In this document: one piece after another, positions 9,260 through 58,379 of the stretch | Numbering within the stretch: the first letter of the stretch is position 1 | Layout: each line of letters opens with the position of its first letter | Assembly (NCBI RefSeq): GCF_028621715.1 | Contig: NZ_CP117466.1 | Span: 3,050,501-3,114,500 of the forward strand | Direction of reading: 5' to 3' | Length of the DNA stretch: 64,000 nt | Source: Paracoccus marcusii | GTDB taxonomy: Bacteria > Pseudomonadota > Alphaproteobacteria > Rhodobacterales > Rhodobacteraceae | Position numbers and translations under genes: made by a program | The notes under the pieces: model-generated | Database searches by the model: none | What the model saw: the letters and a program-made list of their open reading frames with translations, nothing else | Told to the model about the DNA's origin: nothing

Positions 9260-10365
9260 CCGTCGGCTCCGACCAGGGGTTCGGCGGCGGCAGTCCGGTC
9301 AGGGCGCGGCGTGGCGGTGACGACGGTGCCGGCGTCGACGCGGTGCAGGTTCGACACGATGATCTGGGTGCCCAGGTCCAGACCCGCCAGGACCTCGACC
9401 AGTCCGTCGGACTGCTGGCCCACCTGGATGTCGGCCCAGGCCGCCTCGTTCCCCTGCACGATCAGTACGCGCTGGACATCGCCCTCGACGCTCAGCGCGG
9501 ATTCGGGGACCGCGGGGCGTTCGCGCTGATCCAGGACCAGCTCGACCTGCAGGAACATCCCGCCGGTCAGGGCGCGGTCGGGGTTCGGCATCTGCGCGCG
9601 CAGCGCGATCGACCGCGTGGCGGCATCGACCCGCGTGTCGATCAGGCTGATCGTCGCGTCGAAGACCCGGTCGGGCCAAGCCGAGGACCGCAGCTGGACC
9701 CCCTGCCCGACCGCCAGGCGCGGCAACAGCGTCTCGGGCACGCCGAAATCCACCTCGATCACCTCCAGGTCGTCCAGCGTGGCGATGGGGGTGCCGCTGT
9801 CCAGCATCTGCCCCTCGACCAGGTCCGTCAGGCCGATGACGCCGGAAAACGGGGCGCGCAGCAGACGGTCCTCCAGCAGGACCTGGGCGCGGTCGCGTTC
9901 GGCCCGGGCGCGCAGCTGGGCCGCGCGGGCGGTCTGAAAGGCGGCGTCCGACGACGATCCGCTGGCATTCAGCTGTTCCTGGCGGGCAAAGGCGGCGTCG
10001 GCCTCGGCCAGGGTCGCCTCGGCGGCGGCCAGATCGGCCTGTTCGGCACGGTCGTCCAGTTCCAGCAGGACATCGCCGCGTTCGACCTGTGCGCCGGGGC
10101 GAAAGGCGATGCGGGTGATGCGGCCGCTCGCCTCGGGCATCAGCTCGACCGCGCTGCGGGCACGTGCGGTGCCGACGGCGCGGACGCTGTCGACGAACCG
10201 CGCGGTCTGGACGGCCACGGTCTCGACCGGCACCGCCTCTCCGGCGCCGTCGGACGGGCGGCGGGCCTGTTCGGGTTCGCTCAGAAGACGGTCCGACAGC
10301 GTCATGCCCCCGGCGGCCGCGGCGATGATCACGATGGCGCCGATGGTTGCCTTGACGAAGCGCAT
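9256..10365 (-). CDS. RND pump periplasmic adaptor (membrane fusion protein)
   Basis: This 369-residue adaptor links the RND permease to an outer-membrane channel. It begins with a membrane anchor or uncleaved signal (MRFVKATIGAIVIIAAAAGG), then a barrel-sandwich (lipoyl-like) half with RITRIAFRPGAQVERGDVLL. A helical hairpin of about 70 residues (QADLAAAEATLAEADAAFARQ onward) follows, then the second half of the sandwich with LLRAPFSGVIGLTDLVEG and a beta-barrel. I chose the ATG before the hydrophobic segment, with GGGAGA about nine bases upstream. An in-frame extension of 32 codons further upstream has no signal and low plausibility. The gene is first in a two-gene operon with the permease. 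Confidence 0.93.
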   Translation of the reverse strand: MRFVKATIGAIVIIAAAAGGMTLSDRLLSEPEQARRPSDGAGEAVPVETVAVQTARFVDSVRAVGTARARSAVELMPEASGRITRIAFRPGAQVERGDVLLELDDRAEQADLAAAEATLAEADAAFARQEQLNASGSSSDAAFQTARAAQLRARAERDRAQVLLEDRLLRAPFSGVIGLTDLVEGQMLDSGTPIATLDDLEVIEVDFGVPETLLPRLAVGQGVQLRSSAWPDRVFDATISLIDTRVDAATRSIALRAQMPNPDRALTGGMFLQVELVLDQRERPAVPESALSVEGDVQRVLIVQGNEAAWADIQVGQQSDGLVEVLAGLDLGTQIIVSNLHRVDAGTVVTATPRPDRTAAAEPLVGADG

Positions 10366-10470
10366 GGTCTGTATTCTCCCGTGACGGGCCTGGGGTCGGT
10401 CGGCCTCCTGCCGCCCTTGTCGCCGGGCGGTGCTGCGCGCAGATTGCCCCTTGGTGCGCATCGTGCAACT

Positions 10471-10538
10471 GATAATCCCGTGTAGGGGGCACGATACGCC
10501 CCCGTTGCCTCCGCAGGGGGCATGCGGCCCGCCCCCTG
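10471..10538 (+). promoter_or_regulatory. Leader with GATAAT box and two GC-rich hairpins before the phosphatase gene
   Basis: GATAAT at 10471-10476 resembles a -10 box, though I see no good -35 at normal spacing. Downstream are two perfect hairpins: GGGGGC/GCCCCC (10485-10490 with 10498-10503) and CAGGGGGC/GCCCCCTG (10514-10521 with 10531-10538). The second ends directly before the AAAGGA ribosome-binding site of the next gene. Neither has a T-run, so they look more like leader structure than terminators. Confidence 0.4.
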
Positions 10539-10550
10539 AAAGGATCCCCG

Positions 10551-11333
10551 ATGGGTACCACCGACGACCTGACCCTGGCTATCGACGCCGCCCATGCAGC
10601 CGGTGCGCTGCTGCAGGCGCATTGGAACGACCGCGACCTGCTGACCATCGACGCCAAGCGTCAGGGCGACTTCGTGTCGCAGGCCGACCACCAGTCCGAG
10701 GCACTGCTGCGCGACCGCCTGCTGGGCGCCAACCCCGACGACGGCTGGCTGGGCGAGGAGACCGACGCCCGTCCCGGCCGGCGCCGTTGGATCGTGGACC
10801 CCCTGGACGGCACGACGAACTTTCTGCGCGGGATCGCGCATTGGGCGGTGTCCATCGCGCTGGAACAGGACGGGCAACTGGTGCTGGGCGTGGTCCACGA
10901 CCCGCTGAAGGCAGAAACGTTCAGCGCCATGACAGGGTCGGGGCTGCAGCTGAACGGGCGCCGCCTGGACCCTGCCGCGCCGCCGGGCTTTGACGTGGCG
11001 CTGTTTGGGACGGGCCTGCCGTTCGGCAACATGCCTTACATCGACGATCACGCGGCCGACCTGGCGCGGGTGCTGCCGGGCACGGCGGGGGTGCGCCGGA
11101 TGGGTGCCGCGGCGCTGGATCTGGCCTATGTGGCGGCCGGGCGGCTGGACGGGTTCTGGGAACGCCGCTTGCGTCCCTGGGACATCAGCGCCGGCCTGGT
11201 TCTGGTCCGCGAGGCGGGGATGCAGGTCGAAGGCTGGACCCCCGACGAACGCCCCGAGGAGACGGGGACCGTCATCACCGCCCCGGCGCCGATCTTCGAC
11301 CGGCTGGCCGCGACGCTGCGTGCGGACCGCTAG
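10551..11333 (+). CDS. Inositol monophosphatase family protein (SuhB/CysQ-like)
   Basis: The 260-residue magnesium-dependent, lithium-sensitive-type phosphatase shows the family's metal-binding motifs: GEE at residues 68-70, WIVDPLDGTTNF at about 80-91, and RPWDISAGL near residue 210. Members dephosphorylate inositol-1-phosphate, 3'-phosphoadenosine 5'-phosphate or related sugar phosphates; which one cannot be decided here. The ATG follows AAAGGA at good spacing. The gene stands alone on the plus strand, divergent from the efflux operon, and its stop overlaps the convergent FkbM methyltransferase by four bases. The upstream leader hairpins could influence its translation. Confidence 0.9.
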   Translation: MGTTDDLTLAIDAAHAAGALLQAHWNDRDLLTIDAKRQGDFVSQADHQSEALLRDRLLGANPDDGWLGEETDARPGRRRWIVDPLDGTTNFLRGIAHWAVSIALEQDGQLVLGVVHDPLKAETFSAMTGSGLQLNGRRLDPAAPPGFDVALFGTGLPFGNMPYIDDHAADLARVLPGTAGVRRMGAAALDLAYVAAGRLDGFWERRLRPWDISAGLVLVREAGMQVEGWTPDERPEETGTVITAPAPIFDRLAATLRADR

Positions 11334-12061
11334 GCCAGCCGCGCGTAAAGATCGCCCGACCCGCCCTGCGGGTCGAGGCCCTTCAGCCAGGCGCGCACGG
11401 CATCCGCGTCGCGCCAGTCGTCCCACAGGAATCCGCCCGCCTCGCCGGTCACCGGATTGAAGCGGTAAAGGCTTAGATCCTGCAGCCGGTCGATCACCGC
11501 CAGCGTCCGGTCGCGGAACGCAGGAAGGTATTCGACCGACAGCATCGGCAGCGGCTGGCCCAGCCCGGACAGCACGTCCAGCTCGAACCCCTCGACGTCG
11601 ATCTTGACGAAATCGGGCAGGCCATGCGCCGCGATCAGCGCGTCCATGGTGGTCATCCGCACCTCCTGGCTGCGGTCCCACCGGACATGCTCGAAGCCGG
11701 GGGCAGCGGCCGCCTCGGCCGCAAAGCTGGTGCTCAGCGACGATACCGTCGGATGCAGCGACGACACCGCCATGCGGGCCACCGTCTCCGTCGGGCCCAC
11801 GGCCTGCTGCACCAGCACGATGTCGCGCGGCAGGCTGCGGCGAAGAAAGCCCGCGAACGGCTCCTGCGGTTCGCAGGCCACGACCCTCGCCCCGGCGGCC
11901 CGCATGGCGCGCGCCCGGCTGCCCACATGCGCGCCGATGTCGAAGGCCAGGTCGCCCGGTTGCAGCAGCCCGCCATAGAACGCCCGCAGCTGCCTGCGCC
12001 GCAGCGGGTTGTAATAGATGGCAAGCGACCGGATCAGCCCCAGATAGGCACGCAGTTGCAT
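11330..12061 (-). CDS. FkbM family SAM-dependent methyltransferase
   Basis: The 243-residue protein has a class I methyltransferase fold. SAM-binding motif I is LAFDIGAHVGSRARAMRAAG near residues 38-57, an acidic residue after the second strand is in VVACEPQEPF, and the FkbM hallmark VKIDVEGFELDVLSGL occurs near residues 155-170. Family members mostly O-methylate sugars or polyketides; the substrate here is unknown. It is transcribed away from the GTP cyclohydrolase II gene, from a shared 195-base intergenic region. It may or may not belong with that cluster. Confidence 0.88.
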   Translation of the reverse strand: MQLRAYLGLIRSLAIYYNPLRRRQLRAFYGGLLQPGDLAFDIGAHVGSRARAMRAAGARVVACEPQEPFAGFLRRSLPRDIVLVQQAVGPTETVARMAVSSLHPTVSSLSTSFAAEAAAAPGFEHVRWDRSQEVRMTTMDALIAAHGLPDFVKIDVEGFELDVLSGLGQPLPMLSVEYLPAFRDRTLAVIDRLQDLSLYRFNPVTGEAGGFLWDDWRDADAVRAWLKGLDPQGGSGDLYARLA

Positions 12062-12152
12062 CGGGTATCCTCAGGTTTGAACGGTCGCAGCCTAGGGCCA
12101 TCGGCGGCCCGCGTCCAGAAAACCGGGGCGTGCCGAAACGCCGCGCGAAACT

Positions 12153-12222
12153 TTGCGACATTCTGCCACAACGCCGCAACCTTTGCGGAACTGCTACGTG
12201 TTTCAAGACGTTGCGACTTGCG
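12153..12222. promoter_or_regulatory. Cluster of TTGCG motifs in the region upstream of ribA
   Basis: Within 70 bases between the divergent methyltransferase and ribA genes there are TTGCG elements at 12153, 12183, 12211 and 12218 and an inverted copy CGCAA at 12175. Two form a perfect inverted repeat, CCGCAA-N3-TTGCGG (12174-12188). The first lies in a pseudo-palindrome of 19 bases (12153-12171) that recurs upstream of bioY. A role as a regulator binding region is inferred. I see no FMN riboswitch consensus here. Confidence 0.35.
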
Positions 12223-12256
12223 TGACACCTCAATTTGCAGGGACGAAGGTTGACCA

Positions 12257-13393
12257 ATGCACGTATTTCCCCCGACCACCCCCGCTGCGCTTTCGGTCAC
12301 CGCGACCGGTGATCCGCTGGCGCTGCGCACGGCCGAACGGGTTGCGCGCATGGTCTCCGATCTCAGGCTTGGCCTGCCCGTCGTGCTGCTGGGCGAGCCC
12401 GCTGCGGCGCTGATCCTGCCGGTCGAGACGCTGTCGCCGGAACGGTTCGCGGCCCTTGGTTCCGGGGGTGAACTGGTGCTGACGGCCCGTCGCGCGGACG
12501 CCCTGCGCCATCGTCCCCACGAGGGTGAGGTCGCCCTGATCCCGGTTCCCGCCGGCGCACGTCTGGACTGGATCCAGGCCTTGGCCGATCCGTCGCGCCA
12601 GATGCCCGCATCGGCCGCCGTGCCCCAGGCACCGCAGCACGCCCCCGCCCCGATGCACCGCGCCGCCATCCGTCTGGTCAAGGCGGCCGAACTGCTGCCC
12701 GCCGTTCTGGTCGTGACCGGCCCCGATGTCGTCGAGACCGCCCTGCGCAACGATCTGGGCATCCTGGCCGCCGATGATGTCCTGAATCAGATCCTGCTGC
12801 CCCGCGATCCCCGCCCCGTGTCGAACGCCCGCGTGCCGATGCTGGCGGCACGAAACGGACGGCTGCACGTGTTCCGCGCGCCCGACGGCGGCCCCGAGCA
12901 TTACGCGGTCGAGGTCGGCACACCCGATCGCAGCCAGCCCGTGCTGGTCCGCCTGCATTCCGCCTGCTTCACCGGCGACGTGCTGGGCAGCCTGAAATGC
13001 GATTGCGGCCCTCAACTGCAGGCCGCCCTGCGCGCGATGGAGGCAAACGGGACCGGCGTCCTGCTGTATCTGAACCAGGAAGGTCGTGGCATCGGCCTTG
13101 CCAACAAGATGCGCGCCTACAGCCTGCAGGATCAGGGACTGGATACGGTCGAGGCCAATCACCGCCTTGGGTTCGAGGATGACGAACGCGATTTCCGCAC
13201 GGGCGCGGCATTGCTGCGCCAGATGGGGATCGCTCGCGTGCGCCTGATGACCAACAATCCTGCCAAGATTGCCCGTCTGGACAGCGAGGGCATCGAGGTC
13301 GTGGACCGCGTCGCGCTCAAGGTCGGCCGCGGCCCCGAGAACACCCGCTATCTGGACACCAAGGCACGCAAGTCGGGACATCTGCTGGCATGA
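12257..13393 (+). CDS. ribA: GTP cyclohydrolase II with a degenerate RibB-like N-terminal domain
   Basis: The C-terminal half (residues about 185-378) is a full GTP cyclohydrolase II, which opens GTP to 2,5-diamino-6-ribosylamino-pyrimidinone 5'-phosphate, formate and pyrophosphate. The zinc cysteines are C237, C248 and C250 (SACFTGDVLGSLKCDCG). NQEGRGIGLANKMRAY carries the phosphate-handling residues and Y288, equivalent to E. coli Tyr105. The N-terminal 180 residues have the layout of DHBP synthase (DLRLGLPVVLLGE) but lack its acidic metal-binding motif, so that domain is probably inactive. The gene opens a cluster: its stop overlaps the next ATG (ATGA). Rhodobacterales often carry a separate bifunctional RibBA, so this copy may serve the cluster and not riboflavin. 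That is inference. Confidence 0.9.
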   Translation: MHVFPPTTPAALSVTATGDPLALRTAERVARMVSDLRLGLPVVLLGEPAAALILPVETLSPERFAALGSGGELVLTARRADALRHRPHEGEVALIPVPAGARLDWIQALADPSRQMPASAAVPQAPQHAPAPMHRAAIRLVKAAELLPAVLVVTGPDVVETALRNDLGILAADDVLNQILLPRDPRPVSNARVPMLAARNGRLHVFRAPDGGPEHYAVEVGTPDRSQPVLVRLHSACFTGDVLGSLKCDCGPQLQAALRAMEANGTGVLLYLNQEGRGIGLANKMRAYSLQDQGLDTVEANHRLGFEDDERDFRTGAALLRQMGIARVRLMTNNPAKIARLDSEGIEVVDRVALKVGRGPENTRYLDTKARKSGHLLA

Positions 13394-14334
13394 CGGCCCG
13401 CGCACTCTGGTGCACCACACCGGGCGAGGCGCAGTTGCGTCCCGCACAGGTCGGCGACGGCGTCCATGTCCGCAGCCTGTTTTCCGGCATCAGCCGGGGC
13501 ACGGAACGGTTGGTCCTGTCGGGAAAGGTGCCGTCCAGCGAACATGACCGCATGCGCGCGCCGTTCCAGGAAGGCCACTTTCCGTTTCCGGTCAAGTACG
13601 GCTATGCCAATGTCGGTCAGGCAACCGACGGGGCGCTTGCCGGTCGCATGGTCTTTTCGCTGTTCCCCCACCAGACCGAATTTCGTTTGCCGGAGGATGC
13701 GCTGATCCCGCTGCCCGACGAGCTGCCGCCGGAACGCGCGATTATGGCCGCGAACATGGAGACAGCGCTGAACATCCTGTGGGACAGCGGCGCGGGCGCG
13801 GGTGACCGCATCGCCGTGGTCGGTGGTGGGCTGGTGGGACTGCTGACGGCCTCTCTGGCGGCGCGACTGCCGGGGGCAGAGGTCACAGTGATCGACACCC
13901 TGCCCGAACGCGCCACCACCGCGCGCGACTTGGGCTGCGCCTTTGCAAACCCCGGTGATGCCCCCGGTGATCAGGACGTGGTGATCCATACCAGCGCATC
14001 CCAAGCCGGGCTGGTGCTGGCGCTGTCCTTGGCCGGGCCGCAGGCCACCATCGCCGAAGCCAGCTGGCACGGCGCCGAACAGGTGGCCCTGCCCTTGGGC
14101 GGCGCGTTCCACAGCCGCCGCCTGCGCATCGTCAGCACGCAGGTGGGCGGGATCCCGCCCGACCGTGCGCCGCGCTGGACCTATCGACGCCGCCTGACCA
14201 AGGCGCTGGACCTGCTTCGAGACGCGAGGCTGGACGCCCTGATTTCGGGGCAAACGGCCTTTGCCGACCTGCCCGACGCCTATCCCGGCATCCTGGCGGA
14301 CCCCGCCACGCTGTGCCACCGCATCATCTATTGA
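13390..14334 (+). CDS. Zinc-independent-looking MDR family dehydrogenase (BchC-like)
   Basis: The 314-residue protein is a medium-chain dehydrogenase/reductase. The Rossmann motif is VVGGGLVGLLTASLAA near residues 142-157. In the N-terminal catalytic domain the usual GHE zinc motif is replaced by VKYGYANVG, and the four-cysteine structural zinc lobe is missing. The stretch LFSGISRGTERLVLSGKVP resembles BchC-type and related short MDR enzymes. It therefore probably oxidises or reduces an alcohol/carbonyl without structural zinc. It is coupled to ribA by a four-base overlap and followed after 13 bases by the PTPS-like gene, so it should act in the same pathway. The substrate is unknown. Confidence 0.8.
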   Translation: MTARALWCTTPGEAQLRPAQVGDGVHVRSLFSGISRGTERLVLSGKVPSSEHDRMRAPFQEGHFPFPVKYGYANVGQATDGALAGRMVFSLFPHQTEFRLPEDALIPLPDELPPERAIMAANMETALNILWDSGAGAGDRIAVVGGGLVGLLTASLAARLPGAEVTVIDTLPERATTARDLGCAFANPGDAPGDQDVVIHTSASQAGLVLALSLAGPQATIAEASWHGAEQVALPLGGAFHSRRLRIVSTQVGGIPPDRAPRWTYRRRLTKALDLLRDARLDALISGQTAFADLPDAYPGILADPATLCHRIIY

Positions 14335-14347
14335 CCCTGGAGACACC

Positions 14348-14743
14348 ATGTTCGCCGTCGAAGTCCGAGACCACATCATGATCGCCCATTCCTTTCCCTC
14401 GCCGACCTTCGGTCCGGCACAAGGGGTGCATGGCGCGACCTTCACTGTAGACTGCGCCTTCTTCGCCGCCGAGATGGATGACGAAAGCCTAGTCGTCGAC
14501 ATCGGCCTTGCAACCGAAGCCCTGGCCGAGACGCTGGCTCCGCTGCGCTACAAGAACCTGGATGAAATTCCTGAATTCAAAGGGAAAATGACCACCACAG
14601 AATTCCTGTGCAAGCACATTTTCGACCAGATGGCTGGTACCGTGCGGGCCGGCGGGCTGAAGGATGGCGGCCGCGTCAAGAAGCTACGCGTCCTGCTGCA
14701 CGAAAGCCACATGGCCCGCGCCTGGTACGAAGGGGATATCTGA
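14348..14743 (+). CDS. 6-pyruvoyl-tetrahydropterin synthase/QueD-fold protein lacking canonical catalytic residues
   Basis: The 131-residue protein has the length and fold signature of PTPS/QueD: MIAHSFPSPTFGPAQGVHGA near the N-terminus, LVVDIGLATEAL in the middle, TTTEFLCKHIFDQMA, and HESHMARAWYEGD at the end. Two zinc histidines remain (H14, H28), but the third, in the usual HGH, is A30. The catalytic cysteine four residues before H28 is A24, and the usual LDH dyad reads LRY (66-68). E119 is kept. It is thus unlikely to be a normal pterin synthase. My recollection is that a VHGAT-type subfamily exists, often called 6-carboxytetrahydropterin synthase by automatic annotation. The ATG follows GGAGA with six bases spacing. 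Confidence 0.8.
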   Translation: MFAVEVRDHIMIAHSFPSPTFGPAQGVHGATFTVDCAFFAAEMDDESLVVDIGLATEALAETLAPLRYKNLDEIPEFKGKMTTTEFLCKHIFDQMAGTVRAGGLKDGGRVKKLRVLLHESHMARAWYEGDI

Positions 14744-14745
14744 GC

Positions 14746-15519
14746 ATGGGGTTCTCGGCGGAATGGCTGGGCCTGCGCGAACCCGCCGACATGGCCGCCC
14801 GCGACGCGACCCTGATGGCGCAGGCTGCGGTTTTGTCCGGGCCGAACCCGGTCGTGCTGGACCTGGGCTGTGGCACCGGATCGACCCTGCGCACGCTTGG
14901 CCCGCATCTGCCCGACAATGCCCGCTGGCACCTGGTCGACAATGATCCAGCCCTGCTGGAGCGCGCGGCGACCGAGGCGCCGGGCCGCGCCACCGTCCAC
15001 CAGCTGGACCTGCGCGACCTGGAGGGGCTGCCGCTGGACGGCGTGACGCTGGTCACGGCATCGGCCCTGCTGGACCTGATGCCCGCCGACTGGATCGCCG
15101 CGCTGGCCACGCGACTGGCTGATGCCGGCGTGCCGTTCTATGCGGCGCTGTCCTATGACGGCATCATGACGTGGGACCCGGCGCTGCCGCGCGATGCGGA
15201 TGTCACGCGGGCGTTCAACGACCATCAGCGCGGCGACAAGGGACTTGGCCCCGCGCTTGGGCCCGATGCGGCCGTGACCGCCACGCAGATCTTCCGTGAC
15301 GCGGGCTTCGACGTCCACACCGGCCAAAGCCCGTGGCGGATCGGCCCCGATCAGGCCCCTCTGCACCGCGCGCTGGTCCAGGGCATCGCCGAGGCCGCAT
15401 CCGAGACCGGCCTGTCCGTCGCCACCGATTGGGGCCGCAGCCGGATCGCCATGGCAGGCGACAGCCGTTGCCTGATCGGGCATCATGACATGCTGGCCCT
15501 GCCCCCCGGCACGGCCTGA
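14746..15519 (+). CDS. Class I SAM-dependent methyltransferase
   Basis: The 257-residue protein has SAM motif I as VVLDLGCGTGSTLRTL near residues 37-52, followed by WHLVDNDPALLERA (motif II, acidic residue binding the ribose). VTASALLDLMPADW occupies the place of motif III. The later part, with FNDHQRGDKGLGPALGP and FRDAGFDVHTGQSPW, is not diagnostic of a substrate. The start MGFSAEWLGLRE lies two bases past the TGA of the PTPS-like gene, so the genes are tightly coupled. It probably methylates the product of the surrounding pterin/flavin-like enzymes, though this rests on context alone. Confidence 0.85.
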   Translation: MGFSAEWLGLREPADMAARDATLMAQAAVLSGPNPVVLDLGCGTGSTLRTLGPHLPDNARWHLVDNDPALLERAATEAPGRATVHQLDLRDLEGLPLDGVTLVTASALLDLMPADWIAALATRLADAGVPFYAALSYDGIMTWDPALPRDADVTRAFNDHQRGDKGLGPALGPDAAVTATQIFRDAGFDVHTGQSPWRIGPDQAPLHRALVQGIAEAASETGLSVATDWGRSRIAMAGDSRCLIGHHDMLALPPGTA

Positions 15520-15539
15520 CACCCAGAGGAGGACCGCCC

Positions 15540-16370
15540 ATGCATGCCGTCGACGTCACCCCTCGGGTCTGGGACCGGCTTCTGTCGGTCCGCACCGGTC
15601 AGGCCTGCGCCTGCTGCGGTCGGTTCAGCGCCGGCGAACGCGCGGCGCTTGACCTCTATGCGCCGGTCGCACGACGCGATCTTGGTCCGGTCACGATCGC
15701 GCAGATCGGACAGTCGCTGGACGGGCGGGTCGCGACGGCCACCGGCGATGCGCGTGACGTGTCCGGCCCCGAAGGCCTAGCCCATCTGCACCGCCTGCGC
15801 GCGCTGGTCGACGGGGTGGTGATCGGGGTCAAGACCGCGCTGCACGATCAGCCGCGCCTGACTGTGCGGCTGTGCAGCGGCCACAACCCTGCGCGCATCG
15901 TCATCGACCCGCGCGGGCGGCTGCCCGACGATGCGCTGGTGCTGATGGCGGATGGTGCGCGGCGGATCATCGTCACTGGCGTAAACCGCCCCCGCGCCCC
16001 GGGGATCGAGGTCTTGCGCCTGCCCGCCCCAGACGGACGTATGGACCCCATACAGGTGCTTGATGGCTTGCGGAACATGGGCCTTGGATCGCTGCTGATC
16101 GAGGGTGGCGGCATCACCATCACCGGTTTCTTGGAGGCTGGCCTGCTGGACCGGCTGCAGGTGTCGATTGCACCGCTGATCATCGGATCGGGGCCGCAGG
16201 GGCTGACCAGTCTGTCCCCGGTGGACAAGCTGAAAGACGCGCTTCGCCCGGACACGCGCGTCTTCGGCATGGGCAGCGACATCGTCTTCGATTGCGCCTT
16301 CGGCGATCAGGCGGCGCGGGCGATCCTGCCGCTGCATGCGCCGCAGCCGCTGGTCACCGCCGCCAGCTGA
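15540..16370 (+). CDS. Stand-alone RibD C-terminal-type (DHFR-fold) reductase
   Basis: The 276-residue protein matches the reductase half of RibD, which in riboflavin synthesis reduces the ribosyl side chain of the diaminopyrimidinone with NADPH. Visible marks are IAQIGQSLDGRVATATGD, LHRLRALVDGVVIGVKTAL, QPRLTVR, RIVIDPRGRLP and LLIEGGGITITGFLEAGLLD. The deaminase half is absent. Instead there is a 45-residue N-terminal extension with ACACCGRF. An AGGAGG site sits eight bases before the ATG. It closes the cluster and overlaps the convergent CoA-transferase gene by 17 bases. Its substrate may be the RibA product or a derivative. Confidence 0.85.
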   Translation: MHAVDVTPRVWDRLLSVRTGQACACCGRFSAGERAALDLYAPVARRDLGPVTIAQIGQSLDGRVATATGDARDVSGPEGLAHLHRLRALVDGVVIGVKTALHDQPRLTVRLCSGHNPARIVIDPRGRLPDDALVLMADGARRIIVTGVNRPRAPGIEVLRLPAPDGRMDPIQVLDGLRNMGLGSLLIEGGGITITGFLEAGLLDRLQVSIAPLIIGSGPQGLTSLSPVDKLKDALRPDTRVFGMGSDIVFDCAFGDQAARAILPLHAPQPLVTAAS

Positions 16371-17499
16371 ACGAACCCTCGCCCAGGGCCGGGGCGGCAT
16401 CTTCTGCTACCGTCGGGCTGCGGGACAGGGTGATGGGCGTGCGCAACCCCGCGATGCCCTCGGGCGACACGACCATGCCCCGCGCCTGCGCCTGCGGGTC
16501 GGACAGCGCCTCGGACACGCGGTTTATCGGACCTGCGGGCACTCCGGCCGCGGTCAGCGCCGCGATCAGGTCGGCGCGGTCGCGCGATGTCATCGCCCGC
16601 GCCAGGGTCGCGCACAGCGCCTCGCGCCCCGCCACCCGCTGCGCATTCGTGGCAAGCGTCGGATCATCCGCCAGAGCGGACAGGTCCAGCGCCAGGCACA
16701 GCGACCGGAACTGACGGTCGTTCCCGCAGGCGACGATCAGATGGCCGTCCCGCGCCGGAAAGACCTGATAGGGCACGATGTTCGGATGGGCATTTCCCAG
16801 CCGCACGGGTTCGACCCCGCCCAGCAGATGGTTCGCCGCCTGATTGGCCAGCACCCCCAGCGCACAATCGAACAGCGCCAGATCGACCTGCTGCCCCCGC
16901 CCCGACCGCGCCCGCTCCGCCAGCGCCGCCTGGATGCCGATGACGCCATAGAGGCCGGTGAAGATGTCGATCCAGGCCACGCCGACCTTCTGCGGATCGC
17001 CTGCAGGATCGCCGGTCAGCTCCATGATGCCGCCCATGCCTTGGATCATGAAGTCGTATCCCGGCTGGCTGGCGCGCGGCCCGGTCTGCCCGAACCCCGT
17101 AACCGACGCATAAACCAAGCCCGGATTGCGCGCCGAGAGCATCGCGTAATCCAGCCCGAACCGCGCCAGGCCACCCGCCTTGAAATTCTCGACCACCACA
17201 TCGGCGCCGTCGATCAGCGCACGCAGACGCTCCACATCGCCCGCATCGTTGAAGTCGCACGTGACGCTGGTCTTGCCGCGGTTCGTGGCGTGGAAATAGG
17301 CGGCGACCGTCTCCACCGTGCCGTCGGCGCGAAGGCGGTCGATGAAGGGCGGACCCCAACGGCGCGTGTCGTCGCCTTCGGGGGCCTCGACCTTGATGAC
17401 CTCGGCGCCCAGATCGGCCAGGGTCTGGCCGATCCAGGGACCGGCCAGGATGCGCGCCAGCTCGACGACGCGCAGACCAGAGAGCGGGCCTTCAGGCAA
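16354..17499 (-). CDS. CaiB/BaiF family CoA-transferase, probable succinyl-CoA:glutarate CoA-transferase
   Basis: The 381-residue class III CoA-transferase begins [20 protein letters not shown] and has [16 protein letters not shown]. It also has the catalytic-aspartate region [18 protein letters not shown], where the Asp forms the acyl anhydride. Its start overlaps the end of the glutaryl-CoA dehydrogenase gene by eight bases. That pairing is the usual bacterial counterpart of the human SUGCT-GCDH step pair, so it probably activates glutarate to glutaryl-CoA using succinyl-CoA. The substrate assignment rests on the partner gene; other dicarboxylates remain possible. Confidence 0.85.
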
Positions 17500-18700
17500 A
17501 GGCCTGAAGCCCCGTCTGCGCGCGGCCCAGGATCAGGGCATGGACGTCATGCGTGCCCTCATAGGTGTTCACCGTCTCCAGGTTCTGGGCGTGGCGCATG
17601 ACGTGATATTCGGCCTGGATGCCGTTGCCGCCATGCATGTCCCGCGACAGCCGCGCGATATCCAGCGCCTTGCCGCAATTGTTGCGCTTGATGATCGAGA
17701 TCATCTCGGGCGCAAAGCGGCCCTGATCCATCAGGCGACCGACGCGCAAGGACGCCTGCAGGCCCAGGGCGATCTCGGTCTGCATGTCGGCCAGCTTCTT
17801 CTGGAACAGCTGCGTCGCGGCCAGGGGACGGTTGAACTGCTTGCGGTCCATGCCATAGCGATGCGCGCGGAACCAGCAATCCTCGGCCGCCCCCATCACG
17901 CCCCAGCTGATGCCGTAACGCGCGCGGTTCAGACAGCCGAAGGGACCGGACATGCCGCTGACATTGGGCAGCAGCGCGTCCTCGGACACCTCCACGTTCT
18001 CCATGACGATCTCGCCGGTGATGGATGCGCGCAAGCTCAGCTTGCCGCCGATCTTGGGCGCGCTGAGCCCCTTCATGCCCTTCTCCAGGACAAAGCCGCG
18101 GATCTTGCCGCCATGCGCCTCGGACTTGGCCCAGACCACGAAGACATCCGCGATCGGGCTGTTCGAGATCCACATCTTGGCCCCGTTCAGCACATAGCCG
18201 CCCTCGGTCTTGGTCGCGCGGGTCTTCATGCAGGCGGGGTCGGAGCCTGCATCCGGTTCGGTCAGGCCGAAGCAGCCGATCCAATCGCCCGATGCCAGCT
18301 TGGGCAGATATTTCATCCGCTGCTCCTCGGACCCATAGGCATGGATCGGGAACATCACCAGGCTCGACTGCACCGACATCATCGACCGGTAACCGCTGTC
18401 GATCCGCTCGACCTCGCGCGCGACCAGGCCGTAGGCGACGTAGCCCGCGCCGACCCCGCCATATTCCTCGGGGATGGTCACGCCCAGAAGGCCGCTGGCC
18501 CCCATCTCGCGAAAGATCTCGGGGTCGGTCTGTTCGTTCAGATAGGCGTCGGTGACGCGCGGAGCCAGCTTGTCGGCGGCGAAGGAGGCGGCGGTGTCGC
18601 GGATCATCCGTTCATCCTCCTCCAGCTGGTCGTCCAGCAGGAAGGGGTCCTCCCAGGCAAAAGCCGTGCCCTTATGATCGACGGTTGTCTTGTCCAGCAT
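17492..18700 (-). CDS. gcdH: Glutaryl-CoA dehydrogenase
   Basis: The 402-residue flavoprotein converts glutaryl-CoA to crotonyl-CoA plus CO2, passing electrons to ETF, in lysine/tryptophan/glutarate breakdown. It shows the acyl-CoA dehydrogenase FAD-binding block [16 protein letters not shown] and the stretch [18 protein letters not shown]. Near the C-terminus is [20 protein letters not shown], where the catalytic glutamate (about residue 381) lies in the GcdH-specific YEGTHD context. The start [14 protein letters not shown] is typical. It is the first gene of a two-gene operon with the CoA-transferase and is divergent from a LysR regulator, as gcdH/gcdR often are. Confidence 0.93.
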
Positions 18701-57945: not shown

Positions 57946-58006
57946 CGTTCTCTCCGGTTGTGGGTCTGCGGTCAAACCCGCACCCAAGGCCCGTGGTTCC
58001 GACCCC

Positions 58007-58035
58007 TTGCCGCATCCGTGCCGATGACCTATATC
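58007..58035 (+). promoter_or_regulatory. Sigma-70-type promoter of the tmRNA gene
   Basis: TTGCCG (58007-58012) and TATATC (58030-58035) are spaced by 17 bases. They would start transcription near 58042, exactly at the first hairpin of the tmRNA precursor. Confidence 0.65.
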
Positions 58036-58041
58036 GGTGCT

Positions 58042-58379
58042 GTCGGAAGCAATTCCGACTATGGACATAAACGCGCTCGTAATAAGCGGATCGGACCCGG
58101 GGGCGGTACCCGGCGGCTCCACCAAACAACCCTTCATTGGGGGCGAATGGGGCCGAAACAGGATCGACGAACGTCTAAAGGGGTTATGCTTTGTCTCGGT
58201 GAGCTACTACCGTTATCGGTGCAAAACGTACAGTTGCCAATGACAACCGTGCTCCGGTCGCGCTGGCTGCGTAAGCAGTCCGCAAGATCGAAACCTAAGC
58301 CCTTGCGCCTAGCAGCGTAAGGCGGGGCCCGCAGGAGCCTGGCAACAGAATCCTGCACCTTATACCCCCTGATATTTTT
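58042..58379 (+). ncRNA. ssrA: tmRNA, circularly permuted alphaproteobacterial type
   Basis: tmRNA rescues stalled ribosomes and tags the nascent protein for degradation. In this permuted gene the acceptor piece comes first: a hairpin (GTCGGAA/TTCCGAC), a T-arm CCGGG-GGCGGTA-CCCGG (58097-58113), then GGCTCC and ACCA ending at 58124. A 14-base intervening segment follows, then the coding piece from GGGGGCG at 58139. The tag frame is 58236-58274 and reads ANDNRAPVALAA-stop; it is close to the Rhodobacterales tags I recall. The third acceptor pair is G141-U118 (numbers minus 58000), the alanine identity element. Pair five is a G-G mismatch (58143 with 58116). Later stems include CGCCT/AGGCG and GCAGG/CCTGC. 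The 5' and 3' limits are approximate, the latter set at the T5 run. Confidence 0.92.

Follow-up and report, generated by a model that had tools for sequence, protein, structure and literature searches.

A PTPS-marked gene cluster of Paracoccus marcusii as a candidate pathway from GTP to a modified pyrimidine or pterin, with possible ties to phospholipid-type enzymes

What do five packed genes of Paracoccus marcusii make, if they encode relatives of riboflavin and queuosine enzymes and the genome has both sets elsewhere? The genes lie on the + strand at 12257–16370 of the stretch analysed here (the window: 64,000 nucleotides at C1:3050501–3114500 of a genome of one contig, 3,175,811 bases). As read from the open reading frames (ORFs) and the DNA, they encode, in order, a stand-alone GTP cyclohydrolase II (RibA), an MDR-type dehydrogenase, a PTPS-fold protein, a methyltransferase (MT) and a RibD_C reductase (RED) (Table 1). 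RibA and MDR overlap by 4 bases, and the following gaps are 13, 2 and 20 bases. The tight unit described in a first-pass annotation is real, since ORF coordinates, Pfam domains and recurrence across loci agree. With a confidence just short of even, we favour a conserved pathway to a GTP-derived pyrimidine or pterin that would be reduced, methylated and glycosylated and, in many lineages, would feed a phospholipid-type assembly line. The argument is built on gene content, residues, folds, conservation and co-occurrence, all of them observed.

GTP cyclohydrolase II enzymes convert GTP into a deformylated 2,5-diamino intermediate. Because the zinc ligands Cys54, Cys65 and Cys67 and also Tyr105 are kept, as are nine other positions checked (E. 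coli numbering), the cluster RibA should carry GTP to this intermediate. Together with a RibD_C domain, such an enzyme could indicate a second source of riboflavin, perhaps for flavin secretion, a role that has been proposed for Sinorhizobium RibBA (PMC9478397). However, none of the five genes encodes a deaminase, RibE, RibH or DHBP synthase according to Pfam; these functions are encoded elsewhere in the genome, and MDR, the PTPS-fold protein, MT and the GT4 glycosyltransferase that often accompanies them have no place in the riboflavin pathway. The RibD, RibE, RibBA and RibH genes are grouped within ~8 kb (L070), away from the cluster, and this RibD carries deaminase and reductase domains, whereas RED has RibD_C only. 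The RibA half of the RibBA (L070:8856–10037, near C1:1863855) lacks the zinc cysteines (C54D, C65E, C67A). Therefore, a second stand-alone RibA (L069, ~1.1 Mb away), in which every active-site position checked is intact, is probably the housekeeping riboflavin enzyme. A separate QueD gene lies at C1:1528656. Since separate riboflavin and QueD genes exist, the cluster is not the vitamin supply of this genome; duplication of riboflavin or queuosine synthesis was ruled out by these genes and by residues, and we consider a spare riboflavin supply the least probable of the readings discussed here. The non-riboflavin role suggested in the first-pass annotation is thus supported, as both signs that it named were found: a neighbourhood that recurs widely and, elsewhere in the genome, a separate RibBA/RibD set, to which the second RibA and QueD can be added.

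The PTPS-fold protein is often named 6-carboxytetrahydropterin synthase in databases, and its fold and invariant glutamates would suit the known PTPS/QueD reaction, leading to tetrahydropterin or queuosine-type pterins. Alignment of 166 family members with the genome's own QueD as reference argues against this. The catalytic cysteine (Cys25 of QueD) and one zinc histidine (His31) are alanine in 166 of 166; H14 and H28 are kept, so that the three-histidine set is incomplete, and the D–H pair of QueD is not conserved. In addition, the QueD model scores 30.9 against a cut-off of 89, QueD has its own gene, and RibA makes no neopterin triphosphate. We regard the known reaction as very improbable here. 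Positions H14, H28, D51, D72, E85 and E119 are invariant in all 166 members, and E85 and E119 are presumably the positions that anchor the pterin, as in the PTPS/QueD family. The protein belongs to a distinct family, in which a ring-binding site would be put to new chemistry. The only PDB sequence match at E ≤ 0.001 is SCO6650 of Streptomyces coelicolor (3d7j; 54% identity), which has the same alanines in place of Cys and His and whose structure is still titled uncharacterized protein. A relative in P. marcusii (L071) is 98% identical.

RED scores higher with rib_reduct_arch (102 bits) than with eubact_ribD (88), and its best PDB matches are 2azn and 6p8c. The residue four positions before the SLDG motif, which we take to separate 2-amino from deaminated substrates, is Gln in RED; the RibD of P. 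marcusii has Lys there, and the chains of 2azn and 6p8c have Asn. Among the 138 cluster-type REDs it is Gln in 117, His in 16 and Leu in one of the 134 with the motif, which 4 lack. RED is thus closest, by sequence, to a stand-alone 2-amino reductase of the archaeal type, with RibD_C and no Lys before SLDG. In the archaeal-type riboflavin branch (RibA, deformylase, and a reductase acting before the deaminase), a reductase without a deaminase domain is likewise found, and a creatininase-family gene, as in that branch, is present at some relatives of the cluster. In contrast, the cluster has neither deaminase nor lumazine step, and PTPS, MDR, MT and GT4 stand in their place. MDR is over the cut-off only for a general NAD-binding Pfam family and reaches 38 bits with the bchC model TIGR01202 (cut-off 291); both MDR and MT have weak PDB relatives only. 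Foldseek and VIA matches were taken as evidence of fold, not of function.

The comparison of neighbourhoods covers the window together with 165 fetched PTPS-family loci, 166 in all, which are not independent: 80 were picked as nearest relatives, many are close relatives and many are cut by contig ends. PTPS is accompanied by MDR in 159, MT in 147, RED in 138, GT4 in 133 and RibA in 71; the association of the five genes is beyond chance. (Residue counts for RibA leave aside 4 of 73 ORFs, which are fragments or a RibBA-type protein.) Two alphaproteobacterial genomes of 1.4–1.6 Mb hold creatininase, MDR, PTPS, GT4, MT, RED and RibA, and on their strength this seven-gene set is taken as the pathway core. 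The family occurs in 36 of 289 alphaproteobacterial genomes (the class draw; 24 family codes). Strong matches to it are found in 27 of 398 Pseudomonadota, of which 11 are not Alphaproteobacteria, and in 16 of 198 Rhodobacteraceae; genomes with weaker matches only (54 of 81 in the phylum draw, at E 3.9e-12 or weaker, and 2 of 18 in the family draw) were left out as ordinary QueD-type. Plasmids carry the family too (20 records, among them Streptomyces, Microbacterium, Arthrobacter, Agrobacterium, Methylosinus and Thiodictyon). The first-pass annotation mentions similar sets in other Rhodobacterales and in actinobacteria, sometimes with a glycosyltransferase and a creatininase, and all of this is seen in the relatives. 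Of four Streptomyces plasmid loci examined, two have the PTPS gene without the cluster; this lone gene (L156, L157) lies near genes for MEKHLA-domain, cupin and MBL-fold proteins. A Rhodobacterales-like cluster with 73% (L113) and 68% (L117) identical PTPS proteins also occurs in two metagenome-assembled genomes that bear the actinobacterial name Aquiluna, by either wrong binning or transfer. One plasmid cluster (L203) lies downstream of a ribokinase gene and upstream of one for an MtnA-type isomerase.

This patchy, partly plasmid-borne distribution might suit a toxoflavin-like azapteridine or another small GTP-derived antimicrobial, and toxoflavin gene sets also pair a GTP cyclohydrolase II with a methyltransferase and a RibD-like enzyme. 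However, a core of PTPS, MDR and GT4, and the phosphatidyltransferase described below, would be foreign to the toxoflavin pathway, and retention of the core in the two small genomes would be unusual for an antibiotic. We consider such a product most unlikely.

The creatininase-family gene, found in 13 of the 166 loci, may serve the first step. The GTP cyclohydrolase II SCO6655 of S. coelicolor reportedly stops at the formylated intermediate. Two Streptomyces plasmid clusters combine this PTPS with a creatininase and with a RibA in which Tyr105 is replaced by Met. In contrast, Tyr105 is intact in the RibA of the window. No creatininase gene was seen adjoining the cluster, in keeping with the first-pass annotation; the search for one did not extend to other parts of the genome. 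The idea that creatininase strictly accompanies a RibA lacking Tyr105 held only partly: both Met cases have the gene, yet so do seven Tyr loci. In Sinorhizobium and Brucella, the RibA intermediate is deformylated by BrbF, a formamidase of the creatininase family (PMC9478397). The cluster-linked creatininases belong to the same family and are predicted to act likewise, although BrbF serves riboflavin.

The absence of a glycosyltransferase noted in the first-pass annotation is correct around the cluster, but not genome-wide. When the genome was searched with cluster-type families, a CDP-alcohol phosphatidyltransferase (CDP-AP), an LtaS/EptA-fold transferase (LtaS-like), a flippase and GT4 each gave one outstanding match (E-values 4.9e-71 to 1.2e-144; the runner-up has 3.0e-6 in the case of CDP-AP and 6.2e-25 in that of GT4), and the four genes are contiguous, ~145 kb from RibA and adjoined by a cytochrome b561 gene. 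CDP-AP shares with PgsA, PIP synthase and PssA the motif D..DG..AR(8–9)G...D...D, which is invariant in 7 aligned relatives and presumably intact in the P. marcusii copy as well, and belongs to PF01066 (66.5 bits for the family, 44.6 for the P. marcusii copy). Unlike those enzymes, its best NCBIfam score is 41.9 bits (pgsA, cut-off 109). CDP-AP is thus a family separate from PgsA, PIP synthase and PssA as judged by sequence, with a putative alcohol as acceptor. The LtaS-like protein, read on a relative (L150), has membrane helices and an alkaline-phosphatase-superfamily domain; it differs from the phospho-alcohol transferases LtaS, GacH and EptC, being only 12–15% identical, and its family profile has no sequence match in the PDB.

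Among the 166 loci, CDP-AP is present in 78 (at least 234 bits in all), flippase in 59 and LtaS-like in 58. CDP-AP is found in 12 of the 35 class-draw loci and in all 11 from other classes, where flippase (10) and LtaS-like (3) also occur. The genes are interleaved with the core in the order CDP-AP-MDR-PTPS-GT4-MT-flippase-RED on a Microbacterium plasmid and MDR-PTPS-GT4-MT-b561-RED-CDP-AP in Thiodictyon. In the class draw, CDP-AP (counted at E ≤ 1e-20) is present in 21 of 289 genomes, and 20 of these also have PTPS (2.6 expected, with no correction for descent). The two are within 10 kb in 12 of the 20 and further apart or on another contig in 8. At 7 of these 8 unlinked places, CDP-AP is near another associated gene: RibA (G175, G271), RED and FkbM (G028), FkbM and YceI (G015), YceI only (G184), LtaS-like (G233) or, in P. 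marcusii, the whole module. The sole genome with CDP-AP and no PTPS (G127) is 74% complete, and a cluster-type RED adjoins its CDP-AP. A membrane-linked product is therefore pointed to, because GT4 in trans, CDP-AP and, in some lineages, flippase and the LtaS/EptA-fold transferase accompany the cluster.

The strongest competing explanation keeps the same GTP-derived core and ends in a soluble glycosylated, methylated pterin or pyrimidine (a cofactor, pigment or signal), with the CDP-alcohol, flippase and LtaS-like genes making a separate envelope lipid that often travels along. Pterin glycosides are known natural products, and several observations weigh against a lipid-linked product. The compact seven-gene cores of the two 1.4–1.6 Mb genomes have no CDP-AP, which is missing altogether from 16 of the 36 PTPS genomes of the class draw; the lipid step therefore cannot be universal. 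Flippase and LtaS-like linkage is lineage-bound, with 0 and 5 of the 35 class-draw loci compared to 40 and 43 of the 80 named nearest relatives, and this thin linkage on recount lowered our confidence in lipid assembly slightly, from even to just below it. Within Rhodobacteraceae, LtaS-like occurs in 24 of 198 genomes. Seven of the 24 also have PTPS, against an expected 1.9 (hypergeometric 9e-4, a value which, like the Fisher values, ignores shared descent); the other 17 have no PTPS, and 9 of 16 PTPS genomes have no LtaS-like gene. To these are added the unlinked CDP-AP locus of G205, devoid of any associated gene, the presence of RibA in fewer than half of the 166 loci, a Streptomyces fungicidicus locus in which RED was not found, and the partial link of creatininase to Tyr105. 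On the other side, a soluble product does not readily explain why nearly all CDP-AP genomes of the class draw carry PTPS, eight of them unlinked, why CDP-AP genes in trans adjoin RibA or RED, or why core and lipid genes are intermingled on plasmids of Actinomycetota and in Pseudomonadota outside Alphaproteobacteria. We hold a soluble product to be a serious possibility, though well short of an even one.

In the lipid-linked pathway that we tentatively prefer, every reaction after RibA, the order of reactions and the product are our reconstruction. RibA would convert GTP into 2,5-diamino-6-ribosylamino-4-pyrimidinone 5'-phosphate, helped in some lineages by the creatininase-family deformylase, and RED would reduce the sugar while the ring still bears its 2-amino group. 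A phosphatase would remove the 5'-phosphate, for which an inositol-monophosphatase-family protein (IMPase) is the candidate here. The PTPS-fold protein would bind the 2-amino-4-oxo ring and, with MDR and MT, give a methylated pyrimidine or pterin, to which GT4 would attach a sugar. The dedicated CDP-AP of many lineages (20 of 36 class-draw genomes) would then join the alcohol to a phosphatidyl group; in some, including P. marcusii, the flippase may move the lipid across and the LtaS/EptA-fold transferase decorate it outside. The modified diaminopyrimidine or pterin guessed in the first-pass annotation remains the best class for the core product; a membrane-linked product had not been proposed.

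Fifteen of the 17 Rhodobacteraceae genomes with LtaS-like and no PTPS were fetched (G795 and G807 left out). In 12 of these 15 loci, the same 20 kb that hold LtaS-like also encode an ABC importer whose binding protein is of the NMT1/THI5 type, compared to 1 of 7 PTPS-positive genomes; no such binding protein occurs in the 166 cluster loci. In the PDB, it is related only to an N-formyl-aminopyrimidine-binding protein and to one other solute-binding protein. The importer ATPase is nearest to sulfonate, nitrate and taurine types, a further point against our interpretation, so that a pyrimidine is no more than a candidate substrate. The importer has a double-length permease and shares its stretch with CDP-AP, LtaS-like and flippase genes (L221, L224–L234, L237; Rhodobacteraceae). 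A bolder and, in our view, doubtful extension is that a membrane phospholipid with a GTP-derived pterin or aminopyrimidine head group is made in at least two bacterial phyla. This lipid would be redox-active or light-absorbing and would be flipped to the outer face, where cytochrome b561 might serve it, and some relatives that lack the biosynthetic genes would take up the ring instead.

Table 1. Features of the cluster, its surroundings and the module in trans (positions in the window, or in the genome where marked trans)
Feature	Position	Strand	Setting	Evidence
RibA, stand-alone GTP cyclohydrolase II, ~200-residue N-terminal extension	12257..13393	+	window	PF00925 (GTP_cyclohydro2) 200.5 bits, residues 199–352
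MDR, short zinc-type alcohol-dehydrogenase relative, weakly BchC-like	13390..14334	+	window	ADH_zinc_N 23.3 bits (cut-off 31.8)
PTPS-fold protein, SCO6650 family	14348..14743	+	window	Pfam PTPS 72.8 bits
Class I SAM-dependent methyltransferase (MT)	14746..15519	+	window	PF13649 (Methyltransf_25) 41.8 bits
RED, RibD_C reductase without deaminase domain	15540..16370	+	window	RibD_C 128.9 bits
IMPase phosphatase, upstream neighbour	10551..11333	+	window	PF00459 182 bits
FkbM-family methyltransferase, upstream neighbour	11330..12061	-	window	PF05050 63.2 bits
Divergent FkbM/RibA intergenic region, 195 bases	12062..12256		window	coordinates
CDP-AP	2913413-2914129		own genome, trans	family search
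LtaS-like (LtaS/EptA-fold transferase)	2914138-2915700		own genome, trans	family search
LPG-synthase-type flippase	2915709-2916614		own genome, trans	family search
GT4 glycosyltransferase	2916656-2917687		own genome, trans	family search

The five-gene extent given in the first-pass annotation stands, except that two recurring neighbours, IMPase and FkbM, had been left out. FkbM is found in 59 of the 166 loci, cytochrome b561 in 51, IMPase in 50, YceI in 28 and EEP in 15. All 50 IMPase copies lie within 6 kb of PTPS, mainly in Rhodobacterales-type loci and in none of the 35 class-draw loci. An MdoH-type glucan glucosyltransferase is near the cluster in 48 loci (L100:12781–14403, L159:7079–8881), often where CDP-AP is missing. 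The divergent region between FkbM and RibA is likely regulatory; no sigma-70-like promoter sites were found in 10000–17500. Riboswitch control was dropped, as Rfam gave no match at gathering threshold near the cluster or in seven module loci. The cluster is not conspicuous in base composition (GC 0.66–0.72). An alphaproteobacterial tmRNA at 58003–58359 (+) is the sole RNA gene that the Rfam gathering scan and ARAGORN detected in the window.

In the open-access literature, we found no paper that describes such a cluster or assigns its product. A PTPS-marked pathway core without an assigned product is thus present in Alphaproteobacteria, other Pseudomonadota and Streptomyces, and is kept by two very small genomes. 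Its ties to phospholipid-type enzymes and to a pyrimidine-type importer give a concrete place to look for that product. If the lipid-linked reading is true, a GTP-derived head group would be added to membrane chemistry.

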